Part shown: positions 43,198 to 49,163 of the stretch, piece after piece
Layout: each line of letters starts with the position of its first letter
Numbering within the stretch: position 1 is the stretch's first letter
Assembly: GCA_030448005.1 (NCBI GenBank)
Contig: JAUJNT010000002.1
Span: 628,925-679,450, forward strand
Length of the DNA stretch: 50,526 nt
Direction of reading: 5' to 3'
Source: Thermoleophilaceae bacterium
GTDB lineage: Bacteria; Actinomycetota; Thermoleophilia; Solirubrobacterales; Thermoleophilaceae
Position numbers and translations under genes: made by a program
Notes under the pieces: generated by a model
Seen by the model: only the letters and a program-made list of their open reading frames with translations
Databases searched by the model: none
Told to the model about the DNA's origin: nothing

Positions 43198-44724
43198 ATG
43201 CGCAACCGTGACCTCCACGATGCGCTCCGGGGCTTCGCGCTCGAGGCCGCTCTCCTGCTGCGCGACGAGCAGAGCACCGGGGCGGAGCTGGAGTTCGACC
43301 TCGAGGAGGGAAGTGGCCGCGGCGGGCCGACGCTCTACCACTACCGCCCGCTGACCGGCAAGTTCATCGCCGAGCGCTGGTCGCGCCTGCGGGCGCTGCC
43401 CTCATGTGGCGCCGCGGGCGACGCGCTCGGCGCCGGGGCGGCCGCGTACCTACGTGTGAACGGCCTGCGCGGGGCCGAGTCCGAGCCCGCGCTGCAGGCG
43501 ATGCTCGAGCGCCTCTACGAGGACGCCACGGACTTCTCCTTTCCCGAGGAGCGCTTCGAGCGCGTCTACGCCCACGTGGAGCGCACGCTGTTCGAGCGAA
43601 GCCAGCCGGCCACGGTGCTCGTGGCGGTGCACGGCCTCGAGCTGGAGGTTGAGCACGTGGACCTGGGCCACGGCCTGGCCCTGAGGCGCGGTGAGCTGAG
43701 CGATGCCCCGGACGAAGCCGTGTGGGGGGACCCGGCTGCCCTCGCGCCCGAGGACGCTGGCCGGCTACCGAACGCCCTCCTCACGCTCACCCGGGAGGTC
43801 ACGCCCGAGCAGCCTCTCCCGGTGAGCGAGGCAGGCGAGGCCTTCCGCGAAGTGCTCACGGGGCTTCGCCTGTGGAAGGCGGGCGGGGTGGCGCTTGCCC
43901 CCGTCGCGTGGCGGCGTACGGGCGATGGGCACTGGCAGCCGTTCGAGATCGAGTCGACCGGGGTCGCACGCGGCGAACCGTGGATCCTGTTCGAGGGTGA
44001 AGACCAAGAGCTCCAGGAGTTCCTGGACGCCATTCGGGGGGCCGCCCGCACGAGCTCGGTGGCGTGGGCGCTCGCGCGCCTCGAGATGGGGCTCGGCCGC
44101 AGGCTCGAGGCGGAGGCGCTCTCGGACTACCTGCTCGGGCTGCGGGCGCTCCTCGACTCCGGTACCGATGGAAGCCGCTCGGGCCTCGGCCTGCGCGTGG
44201 CGGTGCTGTGCGCGGAGGAGCACGAGCGAAAGCGCACCCAGCGCCGCGTCCAGCTGGCTCTCGCCCTCGAGCACTTCGTGATGGGAGATGGCGCGGACGA
44301 CGACTACTTCGAGGCCGTGGGCTCTGACTCCCCACGCACCCTCGTGACCGAGGTGGAGCGCCACCTGCGCGCACTCCTGCGCGACCTGATCTGCGGCTAT
44401 CTGCAGCCGGACCTGCGCGCGCTGGCCGACGACCTCCTGCTCGACCAGCCGGAGCCGCTCGAGGTCCGGGCCCGGGGGCTGCGAGACGGTCCGTCCACGG
44501 TCGCAGCGCGACCGCCTGCCTTCGAGGAGCCCGAGCCGCCGGACATGGTGTTCGAGATCGAGGCGCTGGAGGAGGAGCACGGCGAAGTTGAGGTCCATCA
44601 GGCCGGGGAGGACGCGGCGCCTCTTCGGGAGGAGGAGGCAGCGGCGCCTCGCCGGACGGAGGCGGCCTCACCGCCCGGTGGGCTCGATTGGGACGATCCG
44701 GAGGGCTACTCGGCGCCGGTCTAG
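43198..44724 (+). CDS. Uncharacterised 508-residue acidic protein
   Basis: I do not recognise this family. The protein is soluble, rich in Glu, Ala and Leu, with no membrane segment. About residues 1-60 form a first domain ('LHDALRGFALEAALLLRDEQ' and 'GPTLYHYRPLTGKFIAERWS'). The centre is alpha/beta ('TVLVAVHGLELEVEHVDLGH', 'WILFEGEDQELQEFLDAIRG'). A helical part at about 285-425 resembles a HEPN-like or scaffold helix bundle ('YLLGLRALLDSGTDGSRSGL', 'VQLALALEHFVMG'), and the tail (about 430-508) is acidic and disordered. It converges on the ArsA-like operon with a 4-base overlap of the ends. Confidence 0.75.
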   Translation: MRNRDLHDALRGFALEAALLLRDEQSTGAELEFDLEEGSGRGGPTLYHYRPLTGKFIAERWSRLRALPSCGAAGDALGAGAAAYLRVNGLRGAESEPALQAMLERLYEDATDFSFPEERFERVYAHVERTLFERSQPATVLVAVHGLELEVEHVDLGHGLALRRGELSDAPDEAVWGDPAALAPEDAGRLPNALLTLTREVTPEQPLPVSEAGEAFREVLTGLRLWKAGGVALAPVAWRRTGDGHWQPFEIESTGVARGEPWILFEGEDQELQEFLDAIRGAARTSSVAWALARLEMGLGRRLEAEALSDYLLGLRALLDSGTDGSRSGLGLRVAVLCAEEHERKRTQRRVQLALALEHFVMGDGADDDYFEAVGSDSPRTLVTEVERHLRALLRDLICGYLQPDLRALADDLLLDQPEPLEVRARGLRDGPSTVAARPPAFEEPEPPDMVFEIEALEEEHGEVEVHQAGEDAAPLREEEAAAPRRTEAASPPGGLDWDDPEGYSAPV

Positions 44725-45827
44725 CCCCCGGCGAAGAGATAGGCGTTCATCGCCGCCAACCCCGCGATGTCGTGGACGTCGCCCGGCAGCTCGGGCACCT
44801 CGATCATCGGGCGGCGACCCAGCTCCTTCCTGAGCAGTGCCGTGTTGCGCGCGTCGCGGTCGGCCATGCGCAGGTGATCCTCGAGGTTGTGCACCACCTT
44901 CCTCGCGAGCTGCTCCTGAAGGAGCCCGGCGAGCTCGGCTTCGAGCTTGGGGCCGGGCCGTGCCTTCACCTGGTCGCGCATGCGGTTGACCACGACGCCG
45001 CCGAAGGGGAGGTCGGCGTCTCGCAGCTTGCGGCTGAAGTAGGAGGCCTCCGCGATCGAGGCGGCGCGCGGGGAGGTCACGAGCAGGAAGGTCGTGCGGC
45101 TCTCGCCGAGCAGCGCGTCCACCCGCTTGGCCCGCTCGCGGAATCCGTCGGTCATGTCGCCCAAGGCGTTGAAGAAGCCGGCGACGTCCTCGAGGAGGTC
45201 CACGCCGGTGGCGCGCTTCATCACGTAGAACAGCGCGGCGCTGCCCTTGCCGAGCAGGCCGAGCCCGGCCCGCGAGCCGGCGCGGAAGAACTGCAGCGAG
45301 CGCGAGTCGATGAACCGCGACAGGCGGGCGGGCGCGTCCAGGAAGTCGAGCGCGTTGCGGGTGGGTGGTGTGTCCAGCACGAGCAGGTCGTAGTGGCCGT
45401 CCTGGTGGAGCTCGTGGAGCTTTTCCATGGCCATGTAGTCCTGCGATCCCGCCACGGCGTTCGAGAGCTCCCGGTAGATCGGGTTCGAAAGCACCGCGTC
45501 GCGCGCCTGGGCGTCGGGGGCGTGGGCGTCCACCAGGTCGTCGAAGGTGCGCTTGGCGTCGAGCGTCATGGCCCACAGCTGCCCGGGCCCCCCGAGCCCC
45601 GCGGCCCTCAGTCGGGCGGGATCGACCTGGCGCTCCTCGTTGCCGAGCTCGGGTAGCCCCAGGGAGTCCGCCAGCCGCCTGGCCGGGTCGATGGTGAGGA
45701 CGGCCACCTTCTTACCCCGCTGGGCCATGCCGGCGGCGATCGCCGCCGAGGTTGTGGTCTTGCCAACGCCCCCCGAGCCCGCGCAGATCACCACCTCTTT
45801 TCGCTCGATCAGCCGCTCGACGCTCAC
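44721..45827 (-). CDS. ArsA/Get3-like ATPase, subunit lacking the signature lysine
   Basis: A 368-residue SIMIBI ATPase. The P-loop is 'AGSGGVGKTTT' (residues 16-26), where S18 replaces the signature lysine of the deviant Walker A motif. Switch regions 'LTIDPARRLADSLGL' and 'LLVLDTPPTRNALDFLDAP' are present. 'QDYMAMEKLHEL' and the adjacent helices are typical of the actinobacterial branch. The GTG at 45827 overlaps the stop of the paralogous upstream gene (GTGA). The mycobacterial pair Rv3679/Rv3680 is the likely model. The name ArsA reflects fold and does not imply arsenic export. Confidence 0.92.
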   Translation of the reverse strand: MSVERLIERKEVVICAGSGGVGKTTTSAAIAAGMAQRGKKVAVLTIDPARRLADSLGLPELGNEERQVDPARLRAAGLGGPGQLWAMTLDAKRTFDDLVDAHAPDAQARDAVLSNPIYRELSNAVAGSQDYMAMEKLHELHQDGHYDLLVLDTPPTRNALDFLDAPARLSRFIDSRSLQFFRAGSRAGLGLLGKGSAALFYVMKRATGVDLLEDVAGFFNALGDMTDGFRERAKRVDALLGESRTTFLLVTSPRAASIAEASYFSRKLRDADLPFGGVVVNRMRDQVKARPGPKLEAELAGLLQEQLARKVVHNLEDHLRMADRDARNTALLRKELGRRPMIEVPELPGDVHDIAGLAAMNAYLFAGG

Positions 45828-46744
45828 AGCTTGCGCTCGATCTCTCGTGACAGCGCCTCCAGGCCCTCCAGCTCGAGCTCGGGGGTCACGATGAACGGAA
45901 GGGTGGCCACCCGCGCGCCGACGCGACGGCGCAGGCGGGCCACCTGGGAGCGCTGGTGGCGGGCGCGCGCCTCGGCCGAGAGCGCCACCGTGAGGGCCTC
46001 CCTCGCCGGGGGGGAGCCCGCGCCGTCCACGGCTTCGATCTCCTTCACCTCCGCGGCGCTCAGGCGCCCCGGCAGCACGCCGTTCACCAGCACCTGCGTC
46101 AGCTCCCTGCCGAGCTCCTCCGAGAGACGGCGCTCCAGGTCGATCGTCTCGTTCACGGGCATCTCCTCCGGGAGCGCCACCGCCACAACCGCCGTGGAGG
46201 CCGGGTCGCTGAGAAATGCGTCGATCACCCCGGCGTGCCTCCCGATCGGCCCGACCCTGGCGATCTGCGAGTAGGTGCGCGGCGCCCTCAGCAGCGCCAT
46301 TCCGTTGCCGGTGGCCGGGGCGTCGACGATCGTGAGGTCATACGGCGACGCCCCGGAGGTACGGCGCTCGAGCTGGGCGAGCTCCCACACCTTGCCGATC
46401 GTGACCACCTCCGTCAGGCCGGGCGCCGCCGCGGTGAGGTACTGATACACGTGGCTTGCCCCCAGCAGTCCGGTCAGAGCGCCCGAGCGAAGCTGGCGCC
46501 GAAGCCACTCCTCCTTCGCGTCCTCCGGATTGATCGAGAACGCGTGAAGGCGCGGGGCGACCTCCGTCTCACGGAAGCCGGCGGGCGGGCGCCCGAACGT
46601 CTGGGTGATGCGCTCCTGCTCGGCCACCTCGCAGATCACGGTGCGCTTCCCGGCCCGTGCGGCGGCGAGTCCCATCGCCGCCGCGACGGTGGTCTTGCCC
46701 ACGCCGCCCTTGCCCGTGATCACCACGAGCCGCTGGTCGAGCAC
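45824..46744 (-). CDS. ArsA/Get3-like ATPase, canonical subunit
   Basis: A 306-residue paralogue of the next gene, with a full deviant Walker A 'GKGGVGKTT' (K12 signature, K17 catalytic), 'TVICEVAEQERITQTFG' and 'YDLTIVDAPATGNGMALLRA'. 'ARVGPIGRHAGVIDAFLSDP' and 'EEMPVNETIDLERRLSEELG' belong to the same branch. GTG 46744 is preferred over GTG 46753 because GAGGGG lies 8 bases upstream. Together with the downstream subunit it probably makes a heterodimer. It is divergent from parA. Confidence 0.9.
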   Translation of the reverse strand: MLDQRLVVITGKGGVGKTTVAAAMGLAAARAGKRTVICEVAEQERITQTFGRPPAGFRETEVAPRLHAFSINPEDAKEEWLRRQLRSGALTGLLGASHVYQYLTAAAPGLTEVVTIGKVWELAQLERRTSGASPYDLTIVDAPATGNGMALLRAPRTYSQIARVGPIGRHAGVIDAFLSDPASTAVVAVALPEEMPVNETIDLERRLSEELGRELTQVLVNGVLPGRLSAAEVKEIEAVDGAGSPPAREALTVALSAEARARHQRSQVARLRRRVGARVATLPFIVTPELELEGLEALSREIERKL

Positions 46745-46852
46745 CGCCTTCACCCCTCGGAGGGTAGGTGTCGGAAGGATTCCCCCCAGCTCCTCCGAAT
46801 AGCACTGCGTATGGCAGAGCCCGCTCACCCGTCCGCAGAACCGGAGGCATCC

Positions 46853-47620
46853 GTGACGCCACAGGCGAAGGTCATCGCGTTCACCAACCAGAAGGGCGGC
46901 GTTGCGAAGACCACCACCACGCTGAACCTCGCGGCGGCGTTCGTGGAGTCCGGGCACCGCTGTCTCTGCATCGACCTGGACCCCCAGGGGAACCTGACGA
47001 TGAGCCAGGGCATCGACCCGGACTCGCTCGAGGTCTCTATGTACGACGTGCTCGTGCACGACACCTCGATCCGCGAGGTCATCCGCAAGCGCGAGGTCGA
47101 CGTGGCCTGTGCCTCGATCGACCTCGCCGGAGCCGAGATCGCCATGTCCACCAAGATCGGCCGCGAGCGCTCGCTCGAGAAGGCGATCCGGCCCGTCAAG
47201 GAGGATTACGACTTCATCTGCATCGACACTCCGCCGAGCCTCGGATTGCTCACGATCAACGCCCTCGCGGCGGCAGACAAGGTAATCGTCCCCGTGCAAT
47301 GCGAGTATCTGTCCATGCGGGGCCTCGTTCAGCTGCAGAACACCCTGTCGATGATCCGGGAGGACCTCAATCCGGACATCGAGATTGAGGGAATCCTTCC
47401 CACGCTCGTGGACAGCCGCACCGTCCACGCCAAGGAGGCGATCGAGATCCTGGAGGAGAACTTCGGGGACCGGGTCTTCGCCTCGCGCATCAACAAGACC
47501 GTGCGCTTCGCCGAGGCGCCGGTGAAGGGAATGTCCGTGCTCAAGTACGACCCTGACGGCAAGGCCGCGTTCGCCTACCGCCAACTCGCCAAGGAGGTCC
47601 TCTCGAATGGAAAGCGGTAA
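46853..47620 (+). CDS. ParA/MinD-family ATPase
   Basis: A 255-residue Walker-type positioning ATPase. '[20 protein letters not shown]' holds the signature K14 and catalytic K19 (the third variable position is Ala). '[13 protein letters not shown]' and '[20 protein letters not shown]' are switch regions, and '[17 protein letters not shown]' and '[20 protein letters not shown]' are usual in ParA. GTG 46853 is chosen over ATG 46811 because GGAGG lies 5 bases before it. No parB and no parS-like repeats are beside it; the partner gene is ftsZ, whose ribosome site and start lie within the last codons of parA. Confidence 0.93.
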
Positions 47621-49163
47621 GCGGGCCAGCATGCGGGAGGGGCCGCTGGCGGCGCTCTTCCGCCAGACCGACGAGGAAGGCGCCTCCCAGGCAGAGGTGC
47701 GTGCCGAGCGCGCGCCCGAGTCCAAGCAGTCGGTGGAGCCCCCCGTCAGGCGCGAGGCCACGCCTGCCCCGCCGTCCACACCCGCGCGAGAGGAGCCCCC
47801 CGCGCGAGAGGAGCGCCCGGCTCGGGTGGAGCGCCCGGCTCGGGTGGAGCGCCCGGTCGAGGCAGAGCGGCGCCCGGCGAGCTCGCGCTATGAGGGCGTG
47901 CCCTCGGCCGAGGAGCGCCTTCGTACGGTGTTCTCCTCAGACATCCCGGAAAACATCATGGACCGGCCCGAGCCGCTCGCTCCCGCGCGCGTAGAAGAGC
48001 GGGAGCCGATCCATCAGCCTGCATCACCCTTGGCCCACGACCCGGTGCTGCGCGTGATAGGAGTCGGCGGAGCCGGGGTGAACGCGGTCAACCGCATGAT
48101 CGAGGCGCAGGTCGGCGGCGTCGAGTTCCTCGCGGTCAACACGGACCTGCAGTCCCTCGAGCAGTCACAGGCCCCCACGCGCGTCCACATCGGCAGTGAG
48201 TCCACGCGGGGCCTCGGCTCGGGAGCAGACCCCGAGCTCGGGCGCCAGGCAGCAATCGAGCAGTACGACGAGCTGAAGGGCCTCCTGAAGGGCTCGGACA
48301 TGGTGTTCATCACCGCCGGCGCAGGGGGAGGCACCGGCACCGGAGCGGCGCCCGTGGTGGCGCGGGTCTCACGCGAGGTCGGCGCCCTGACGGTGGGTAT
48401 CGTGACCAAGCCGTTCGCCTTCGAGGGGGTGCGCCGCGGCGCGCAGGCCGACGTGGGCGTGGAGGAGCTTGCCTCCGAGGTCGACACGCTCATCACCATC
48501 CCGAACTCGCGGCTGCTCACGGTGCTCAACAAGAAGACCTCGATGGTGGAGGCCTTCCGGGTGGCCGACGACGTCCTGCGCCAGGGCGTGCAGGGCATCT
48601 CCGACCTGATCACGCTTCCCGGCCTAATCAACCTCGACTTCGCCGACGTGCGCACGATCATGTCCGAGGCGGGCAGCGCGCTGCTCGGCATCGGCATGGG
48701 AACGGGCGACGGCCGCGCCCTCGAGGCGGCCGAGCGCGCGGTCGAGTCGCCGCTGCTCGAGACCTCGGTCGACGGAGCCCACTCGATCCTGCTGTCGATC
48801 ACGGGCGGACGGGACCTCTCGCTGTGGGAGGTCAACGAGGCCGCGCGAGCGGTGTCCGACGCCGCCCACCCCGACGCCAACATCATCTTCGGCGCTATGG
48901 TCGACGAGCGGCTCGAGGACGAGGTGTGGATCACGGTGGTGGCCACCGGCTACGACGACGTCGCGGCCCCCCGGCGCGAGCGCCGTCCGGTCGAGGCGCC
49001 AGAGAAGGCAGAGCGCGAGGCCCCCCCGCCCCCACACCTCCCGGCCCCGCACCGCCCGGCCCCGCCCCGGTCGGCCCCGGCGCGGCCGCTGCGACCACAG
49101 CCCCCCAGCTCGAACGGAAACATCGGCCATATCGACGTCCCGGAGTTCTTCCCGCGTCGCTGA
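47607..49163 (+). CDS. ftsZ: FtsZ with a long N-terminal extension
   Basis: A tubulin-type GTPase of the division ring, 518 residues against the usual 350-450. The GTPase core starts near residue 146 ('[18 protein letters not shown]'), has the tubulin signature GGGTGTG (240-246) and the T7 synergy loop N342-L-D-F-A-D347. The C-terminal peptide [10 protein letters not shown] for anchoring partners is intact after a Pro-rich linker. The first 145 residues are an acidic, Pro/Arg/Glu-rich extension with '[16 protein letters not shown]' at the start and '[17 protein letters not shown]' near the end. ATG 47607 has GGAGGT 8 bases upstream, inside parA; the genes overlap by 14 bases. No ftsQ, ftsA or mur genes are near. 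Confidence 0.93.
47782..47857. repeat. 18-bp-period tandem repeat in the FtsZ extension
   Basis: A 15-base word is repeated at 47782-47796 and 47800-47814, then an 18-base unit at 47811-47828 and 47829-47846 with a partial third to 47857. They encode hexapeptides of the form [24 protein letters not shown]. Confidence 0.8.

Follow-up and report, generated by a model that had tools for sequence, protein, structure and literature searches.

A second FtsZ with a conserved N-terminal peptide, encoded in overlap with an orphan ParA in the Thermoleophilia, is a candidate ParA partner

The stretch of DNA analysed here (the window) comprises 50,526 nucleotides from a Thermoleophilaceae bacterium (GCA_030448005.1, contig JAUJNT010000002.1, positions 628,925 to 679,450) and encodes an orphan ParA-type ATPase, the gene of which overlaps with the start of a gene for a second FtsZ, here called FtsZ2. 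The GTPase core of FtsZ2 starts near residue 146 and is preceded by an arm of ~145 residues with a short conserved peptide at its tip. Judging from sequence comparisons, we consider it fairly probable that FtsZ2 is a paralogue with intact GTPase loops that serves as a direct partner of the orphan ParA, as its cargo and probably also as the activator of its ATPase. The N-terminal peptide is most likely a ParA-docking or ParA-activating peptide placed on FtsZ, similar to the peptides of ParB or PomX. We also lean, if only slightly, towards the broader hypothesis that the Thermoleophilia carry on a duplicated FtsZ the ParA-partner peptide that a small protein carries in other Actinomycetota, that the two genes position the Z-ring with the filaments acting as both cargo and activator, and that the peptide hints at the missing partner of a part of the PldP/ParA2 family.

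The gene pair is conserved in the relatives. The order-level data set contained 40 long-FtsZ loci of relatives in addition to the window's own locus, and 38 of the 40 have upstream sequence (the other two, L034 and L048, are located at contig edges). In each of the 39 loci with upstream sequence, a ParA is encoded directly upstream and overlaps the ftsZ2 start, which is mostly located at -14 (range -4 to -17), counted from the first base beyond the ParA stop codon. At the class level, 35 loci were considered, 24 of them selected solely from FtsZ coordinates and 11 from the motif pattern. In all 35, a ParA gene immediately precedes ftsZ2 and has an in-frame start codon within its end; these ParA proteins are 59.8-71.7% identical to the window ParA, and the one at L236 is split into two frames. 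The adjacency that an earlier note on this DNA had proposed to look for in related genomes is thus kept at both levels: in all 74 FtsZ2 loci with upstream sequence, a ParA is encoded immediately before ftsZ2 and overlaps its start codon, which is GTG in nine loci, where the overlap depends on that start choice. The note had also claimed that the two genes share 14 bases and that the ribosome-binding site of ftsZ lies inside parA codons, and both claims stand (Table 1). Either GGAGG or AGGAG was furthermore identified within 45 nucleotides upstream of the motif in 98 of the 105 distinct motif DNAs.

A motif scan of all genomes yielded at least 120 stretches, and the 120 matches listed all read as the peptide. 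Among these listed matches, 108 continue into the FtsZ core and 12 end with the locus end, and a ParA was identified directly upstream in all 117 that have upstream sequence (3 have too little), either as a frame with a Walker motif (101) or as a cut frame recognized by a short ParA pattern (16). Some of the records represent the same organisms as the sampled genomes, and the scan is hence not independent of the order- and class-level loci. The parA-ftsZ2 locus is also present in a cultured relative, Svornostia abyssi J379 (CP088295.1, L133). Two records titled Bifidobacterium breve (L072) and Burkholderiales (L118) carry the locus as well and are probably misbinned, and one genome (G038) has two FtsZ matches, on contigs C1 (L059) and C70, with a match to the peptide pattern just upstream. 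A plasmid origin of the pair was considered and rejected; two plasmid records were recovered at E<=1e-60, with 46.5% identity.

The earlier note had left it undecided whether the window FtsZ is the sole FtsZ or a second copy. The source genome (9 contigs, 96% complete) contains two FtsZ, the other of which (FtsZ1, 362 amino acids) is encoded on a different contig just after an FtsQ-like open reading frame (by eye; L001), which rules out the sole-FtsZ reading. At least two FtsZ matches were counted by eye in 52 of 61 genomes (the window's own and 60 relatives; one of the 52 qualifies through a short fragment only), and the nine genomes with a single match are 64-89% complete. In a sample of 247 genomes from the phylum, all 29 genomes of the same class (Thermoleophilia) have at least two FtsZ matches; among the 218 genomes from outside the class, eight have two matches and one has none. 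Six of these eight, all but G198 and G393, were re-examined and represent five tandem pairs (f31, f46, f50) and one weak partial match. The tandem pairs were rejected as relatives of FtsZ2: they have no ParA match and no motif, and are placed separately in the tree. These pairs (L262-L266) belong to three other Actinomycetota families, and one copy has a degenerate T7 loop (TLSFESL). In a tree of 94 rows, the 52 FtsZ2 rows (one mislabelled OUT since its ParA frame is split) form a single clade with support 100/98, from which it looks as though there was one old FtsZ duplication in the class Thermoleophilia.

The complete GTPase core with T7 loop and C-terminal peptide described in the note was recovered: the motifs GGGTGTG and NLDFADV and a C-terminal PxF-type peptide are all present, the core scores 413 bits against the TIGR00065 cut-off of 295.2, and the nearest solved chains are FtsZ proteins. 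Both the T7 motif NxDxAD and the T4 motif GGG[TM]G[TS]G are present in 75/75 FtsZ2, and a permissive C-terminal PxF pattern in 68 of the 75, the seven without it all being f5 rows. AlphaFold2 (AF2) predicted a confident core and a low-confidence arm (mean predicted local distance difference test score, pLDDT, 74.2; predicted template modelling score, pTM, 0.63), with arm helices at residues 13-32 (pLDDT about 58-67) and 101-109.

The arm had been described as a long acidic extension. Its length is as claimed, but it is only mildly acidic, with a net charge of -5 over 145 residues (29 D/E, 24 K/R, 22 P); in the relatives, the linker has a median net charge of -7 and is negative in 68/73. An internal start near residue 140, which the note had raised against its own interpretation, is rejected by the conserved upstream peptide: K5, R6, A7 and S8 are located before the next ATG (M9) and kept in 33, 38, 37 and 38 of 39 aligned relatives, respectively, which supports translation from residue 1. 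Across the 39 order-level FtsZ2, there is no change at R10, E11, G12, P13, L14, L17 and F18 and almost none at R6, A7, S8, M9, A15, R19 and T21, whereas most of residues 22-100 show no conservation. About 17 N-terminal residues are thus near-invariant and the linker is variable, the pattern that the note had suggested looking for.

In the wider class, the peptide takes several forms, of which variants exist: RPSMREGPLSELFRST in f5, RPSMKDGLSELFRRT in f6, RSSLKDSGLSALFRAT in f8, RASMREGALANLFQPT in f9, RASMHDGPLADLFRAT in f10 and RHSMRDGPLAALFKAT in f11; f7 likewise has its own 16-residue form. The distance between LF and GVGG ranges from 33 to 188 residues in the 73 of 75 FtsZ2 measured, and only the distal tip of the arm is recognizable class-wide. 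Over 105 distinct DNA versions of the motif, the summed entropy is 4.28, 3.12 and 19.61 at codon positions 1, 2 and 3, respectively, which shows that selection acts on the protein. A DNA- or RNA-level constraint on the motif was rejected, the third codon positions being free. A loose motif pattern matched 107 of 150 class genomes, which was not used as a count; the reversed-pattern control matches ~44 of 150.

One explanation for the arm is that it mainly tunes the curvature or bundling of FtsZ polymers and that ParA positions something else. In Anabaena, FtsZ has a conserved N-terminal peptide that is reported to be needed for normal division and to interact with SepF, and FtsZ without residues 2-51 forms altered polymers (PMC6175996). 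FtsZ2 likewise has a conserved N-terminal peptide; the partner in Anabaena is SepF, and the abstract of that study does not mention ParA. An arm that varies this much in length, and of which only the distal tip is kept across the class, better suits a docking tip, and we find polymer tuning as its main role very improbable.

The earlier note had put forward the idea of a direct ParA-binding arm, and an independent observation speaks for it: behind related ParAs, a different protein is encoded that begins with a similar peptide. Outside the class, we considered 20 ParA loci in 18 genomes, taken from the upper part of the ParA match list. In 10 of these loci, a small gene overlaps or abuts the end of the ParA gene. 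Its product begins with RRASLPGADELFRxT or similar, and this N-terminal peptide is followed by a linker, which varies, and by a C-terminal domain, which is conserved. Other downstream genes, as judged by eye, are parB in three loci, a ScpA-like gene in two and a Zn-ribbon-like gene in four (the KGGVAKT group). No ftsZ gene was found directly downstream of ParA in the 20 loci, one of which (L342) has no ParA frame. The DNA pattern of the small-protein peptide gave 19 matches in 18 genomes in a set of 148 genomes from the phylum, as compared to one for the reversed-pattern control. Of these matches, 18 coincide with the end of a KGGVGKT parA, and the remaining one begins 33 bases from a contig edge; the pattern was found in none of the 16 same-class genomes within the 148.

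By eye, the C-terminal domain of the small protein looks ribbon-helix-helix-like. Three members gave no Pfam match at E<=0.5, and for the C-terminus a PDB profile search gave nothing better than E 0.74 and NCBIfam one stray match. The small protein was seen behind orphan ParAs of other Actinomycetota at L325, L327, L329-L332, L336, L337, L340, L343 and L345-L363, its frame at L356 stopping after 36 residues. At L326, L328, L335 and L344, the gene behind a KGGVAKT ParA is small and, by eye, Zn-ribbon-like; its product is a possible further ParA partner.

A profile of the small-protein peptide, with a spacer of 1-3 residues allowed, was run on 75 FtsZ2 rows, of which 74 were scored (L048 is cut), and p values were taken against 100,000 random 40-mers with a background composition set by hand. 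Four rows had p<1e-5 (three f6, one f8), 12 had p<=1e-4, 48 had p<=1e-3 and 66 had p<=0.01; the median over the 40 order-level rows was 0.00033. Control ParB N-termini reached at most 5.5 bits, as compared to 10.0 for the window FtsZ2 peptide. A similar peptide is thus found behind parA on both FtsZ2 and the small protein, which ties it to ParA on two unrelated proteins. The sharing may reflect either fusion or convergence.

Alternatively, the peptide could bind another protein of the divisome or the envelope, with parA-ftsZ2 serving merely as a co-expression operon. The arm may have other partners, since 30 of the 41 order-level FtsZ2 (0/34 at the class level) carry a second conserved block, ERLRxVFSxDIPENI, as identified with a strict pattern. 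However, the pair is intact in 74/74 loci, and in 18 of the 19 pattern matches a similar peptide begins an unrelated protein directly behind ParA; we regard a partner other than ParA as quite unlikely.

The FtsZ2 peptides also resemble an N-terminal stretch of ParB, which is G[LM]G[RK]GL-like in all 31 class ParBs read (of 61 genomes). For example, GMGRGLAAIL in the genome's own ParB can be compared to SMKDGLSELF in f6, and most such alignments need a one-residue insert. The motif as a ParB-type N-terminus was dropped as a claim for low significance and is kept as a lead only.

The window ParA matches Pfam AAA_31 with 203.4 against 27 bits and reaches 120.5 for the NCBIfam family ParA_partition (NF041546), below the cut-off of 180. 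Its AF2 model (pLDDT 84.2, pTM 0.84) matches the fold of Soj/ParA (9a6n, 8ray, 5if9, 6iub). The score for NCBIfam minD_bact is 56.1 bits versus a cut-off of 212.9, and seven C-termini are KEVLSNGKR-like and, by eye, not like a membrane-targeting sequence. Among the 73 FtsZ2-paired ParAs, K28 is kept in 71 (one T, one gap), and K33, D57 and the A of the deviant Walker A motif KGGVAKT are each kept in 72 (one gap). R203 is present in all 73, and position 232 is occupied by R (53 proteins) or K (20 proteins); we take R203 and R232 to be equivalent to the nucleoid-binding basic residues R189 and R218 of Bacillus subtilis.

No parB adjoins the pair, as the note had stated, but the genome is not without one: its single ParB match is located on another contig (C8), together with a ParA. 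ParB was found in all 61 class genomes (60 above the cut-off). In a ParA tree of 55 rows, the 25 FtsZ2-paired ParAs form one clade (100/98), with four KGGVAKT ParAs of other Actinomycetota (the PV group) as its sister (93/87); the next sister clade (99/97) contains twelve ParAs that are small-protein-linked or ScpA-adjacent, and the 14 ParAs of ParB loci fall apart from this superclade. The window ParA is thus not of the chromosomal ParABS type, having no parB beside it and belonging to a separate clade, and its identification as the chromosomal ParA was rejected given the separate parA-parB on C8. We take the clade of twelve to be PldP/ParA2-like, in a tree without named PldP, Rv1708, Cg1610 or SCO1772, and as part of the best explanation the window ParA would be an orphan nucleoid-binding type related to PldP/ParA2.

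In Corynebacterium glutamicum, deletion of pldP is reported to result in minicells and PldP to form foci at nascent division sites; one suggestion, left open in that study, was that PldP contacts divisome components yet to be identified (PMC3989709). For Rv1708/MSMEG_3743, scpA is given as MSMEG_3742 (PMC10482377). The small-protein-linked and ScpA-adjacent ParAs, presumed here to be of the PldP/ParA2 type (Cg1610, Rv1708, SCO1772), share the superclade with the window ParA, and PldP is linked to division-site choice. The difference is in the downstream gene, which in the 20 loci encodes the small protein, a ScpA-like protein, a Zn-ribbon-like protein or ParB, and never FtsZ.

Our preferred hypothesis is that ParA-ATP dimers coat the nucleoid and that the FtsZ2 peptide docks on ParA, with the dimer interface as the probable site, as reported or thought for the peptides of ParB, MinE or PomX. 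The docked peptide would then trigger ATP hydrolysis by ParA. In this way, filaments of FtsZ2, which would co-assemble with FtsZ1, would be brought to or kept at a position that the nucleoid dictates, thereby placing the Z-ring without a separate adaptor. FtsZ2 combines an FtsZ domain with a flexible arm and a constant tip, which, given the peptides of ParA partners and PomX, suggests to us that ParA moves the FtsZ2 filaments over the nucleoid or holds them relative to it. In the TP228 system, a peptide in the N-terminus of ParB (residues 15-23) is reported to enter the ParA dimer interface and stimulate the ATPase, and to be disordered without ParA (PMC5393062). FtsZ2 is similar to the partners in the ParA-ParB and ParF-ParG systems in having a proposed N-terminal partner peptide, but has no centromere-binding domain, and the ParB likeness is only suggestive. 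In Myxococcus xanthus, the 22 N-terminal residues of PomX, located on a disordered arm, are reported to stimulate PomZ, while the remainder of the protein forms filaments (PMC10307791). In this PomXYZ system, the ParA-type ATPase PomZ positions the Z-ring, and the peptide-arm-filament layout of PomX is like that of FtsZ2; however, PomY recruits FtsZ there, whereas FtsZ2 joins the peptide, the arm and FtsZ in one protein.

The main rival is an inhibitory version, in which the ParA acts as a negative regulator in the manner of MipZ: ParA on the nucleoid would grip the FtsZ2 peptide and block polymerization over the nucleoid, and assembly would occur where ParA is scarce. The MipZ and MinCDE systems also use a Walker-box ATPase for the spatial regulation of FtsZ, but MipZ is an antagonist and MinD acts with MinC and MinE, and we know of no partner peptide fused to FtsZ in either. 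The conserved nucleoid-binding basic residues of the ParA agree with inhibition, and MipZ, which is reported to antagonize FtsZ in Caulobacter and to work with ParB, is a precedent for a ParA-type FtsZ antagonist (PMC9178275). On the other hand, an activator such as PomX carries its peptide at the end of a flexible tether (PMC10307791), and FtsZ2 has this layout. We consider the inhibitory version unlikely, although nothing in our results separates it from activation.

Several points weigh against FtsZ2 as the direct partner of the ParA. Both ParA binding and ATPase stimulation by the FtsZ2 peptide are inferred indirectly. Binding to ParB has been reported for both PldP and Rv1708, and binding to ScpA for Rv1708 (PMC4255298, PMC10482377). 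By analogy, the window ParA may have other partners, and an exclusive FtsZ partner is less likely because PldP-type ParAs are reported to contact ParB. The closest ParA outgroup, the four PV loci, is followed by a Zn-ribbon-like gene without the peptide, and only 18 of the 148 phylum genomes have the small-protein peptide pattern. The match of the window FtsZ2 peptide to the small-protein profile is modest (p 0.00135), and the similarity needs the spacer of 1-3 residues. Eight of the 74 rows had p>0.01 (three f11 rows at 0.015-0.031, L247, L244, L250 at 0.41, for which the scored stretch missed the peptide, and two others). The scoring of all rows was weaker than that of hand-picked rows, somewhat so for f7 and f8, and related FtsZ2 rows are not independent. 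The likeness to the ParB profile is weak, with p 0.004-0.06 in 9 of 11 hand-picked rows and none in two. Finally, six complete f5 FtsZ2 (L251, L252, L257, L258, L260, L274) have no C-terminal PxF peptide and may depend on FtsZ1 for anchoring; the seventh f5 row without it (L273) is cut by the contig end.

The coordinates of the locus are collected in Table 1. A pair of BagA- and BagB-like Get3/ArsA genes (44721-46753, - strand) is located divergently from parA, and such a pair also adjoins parA in most order-level loci.

Table 1. Features of the parA-ftsZ2 locus and its neighbours (positions in the window).
Feature	Position	Strand	Remarks
Orphan ParA ATPase, 269 amino acids, overlaps ftsZ2	46811..47620	+	Walker A KGGVAKT; K28/K33/D57; basic R203 and R232
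FtsZ2, 518 amino acids, second FtsZ of the genome	47607..49163	+	
Likely ftsZ2 ribosome-binding site AAGGAGG, within parA codons	47591..47597	+	9 bases 5' of the ftsZ ATG
Proposed ParA-partner peptide, FtsZ2 residues 5-21 (17 residues)	47619..47669	+	
Linker, variable and low-confidence, FtsZ2 residues 22-101	47670..47909	+	
Second short conserved block, FtsZ2 residues 102-117; order level only	47910..47957	+	AF2 helix 101-109
FtsZ GTPase and C-terminal core, residues 146-450	48042..48956	+	
FtsZ2 C-terminal peptide (10 residues)	49131..49160	+	
BagA-like Get3/ArsA ATPase, divergent neighbour; context, outside the proposed device	45824..46753	-	Below BagA cut-off
BagB-like Get3/ArsA ATPase, neighbour; context	44721..45827	-	Below BagB cut-off

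The placement of the Z-ring by ParA-type ATPases is already known; what would be new is FtsZ itself as the peptide-bearing partner of an overlapping parA, which is described by none of the titles listed in searches of the open-licence PubMed Central literature. It is also new that relatives of the window ParA in other Actinomycetota can be linked to a peptide-bearing small protein. Z-ring placement in the Actinomycetota is poorly understood, and an orphan ParA with a partner-type peptide on FtsZ points to a direct link between ParA and FtsZ. The peptide names a candidate contact of 17 residues and, if our hypothesis is true, the two genes would represent a positioning device. The shared peptide would in that case also point to the missing partner for a part of the PldP/ParA2 family.
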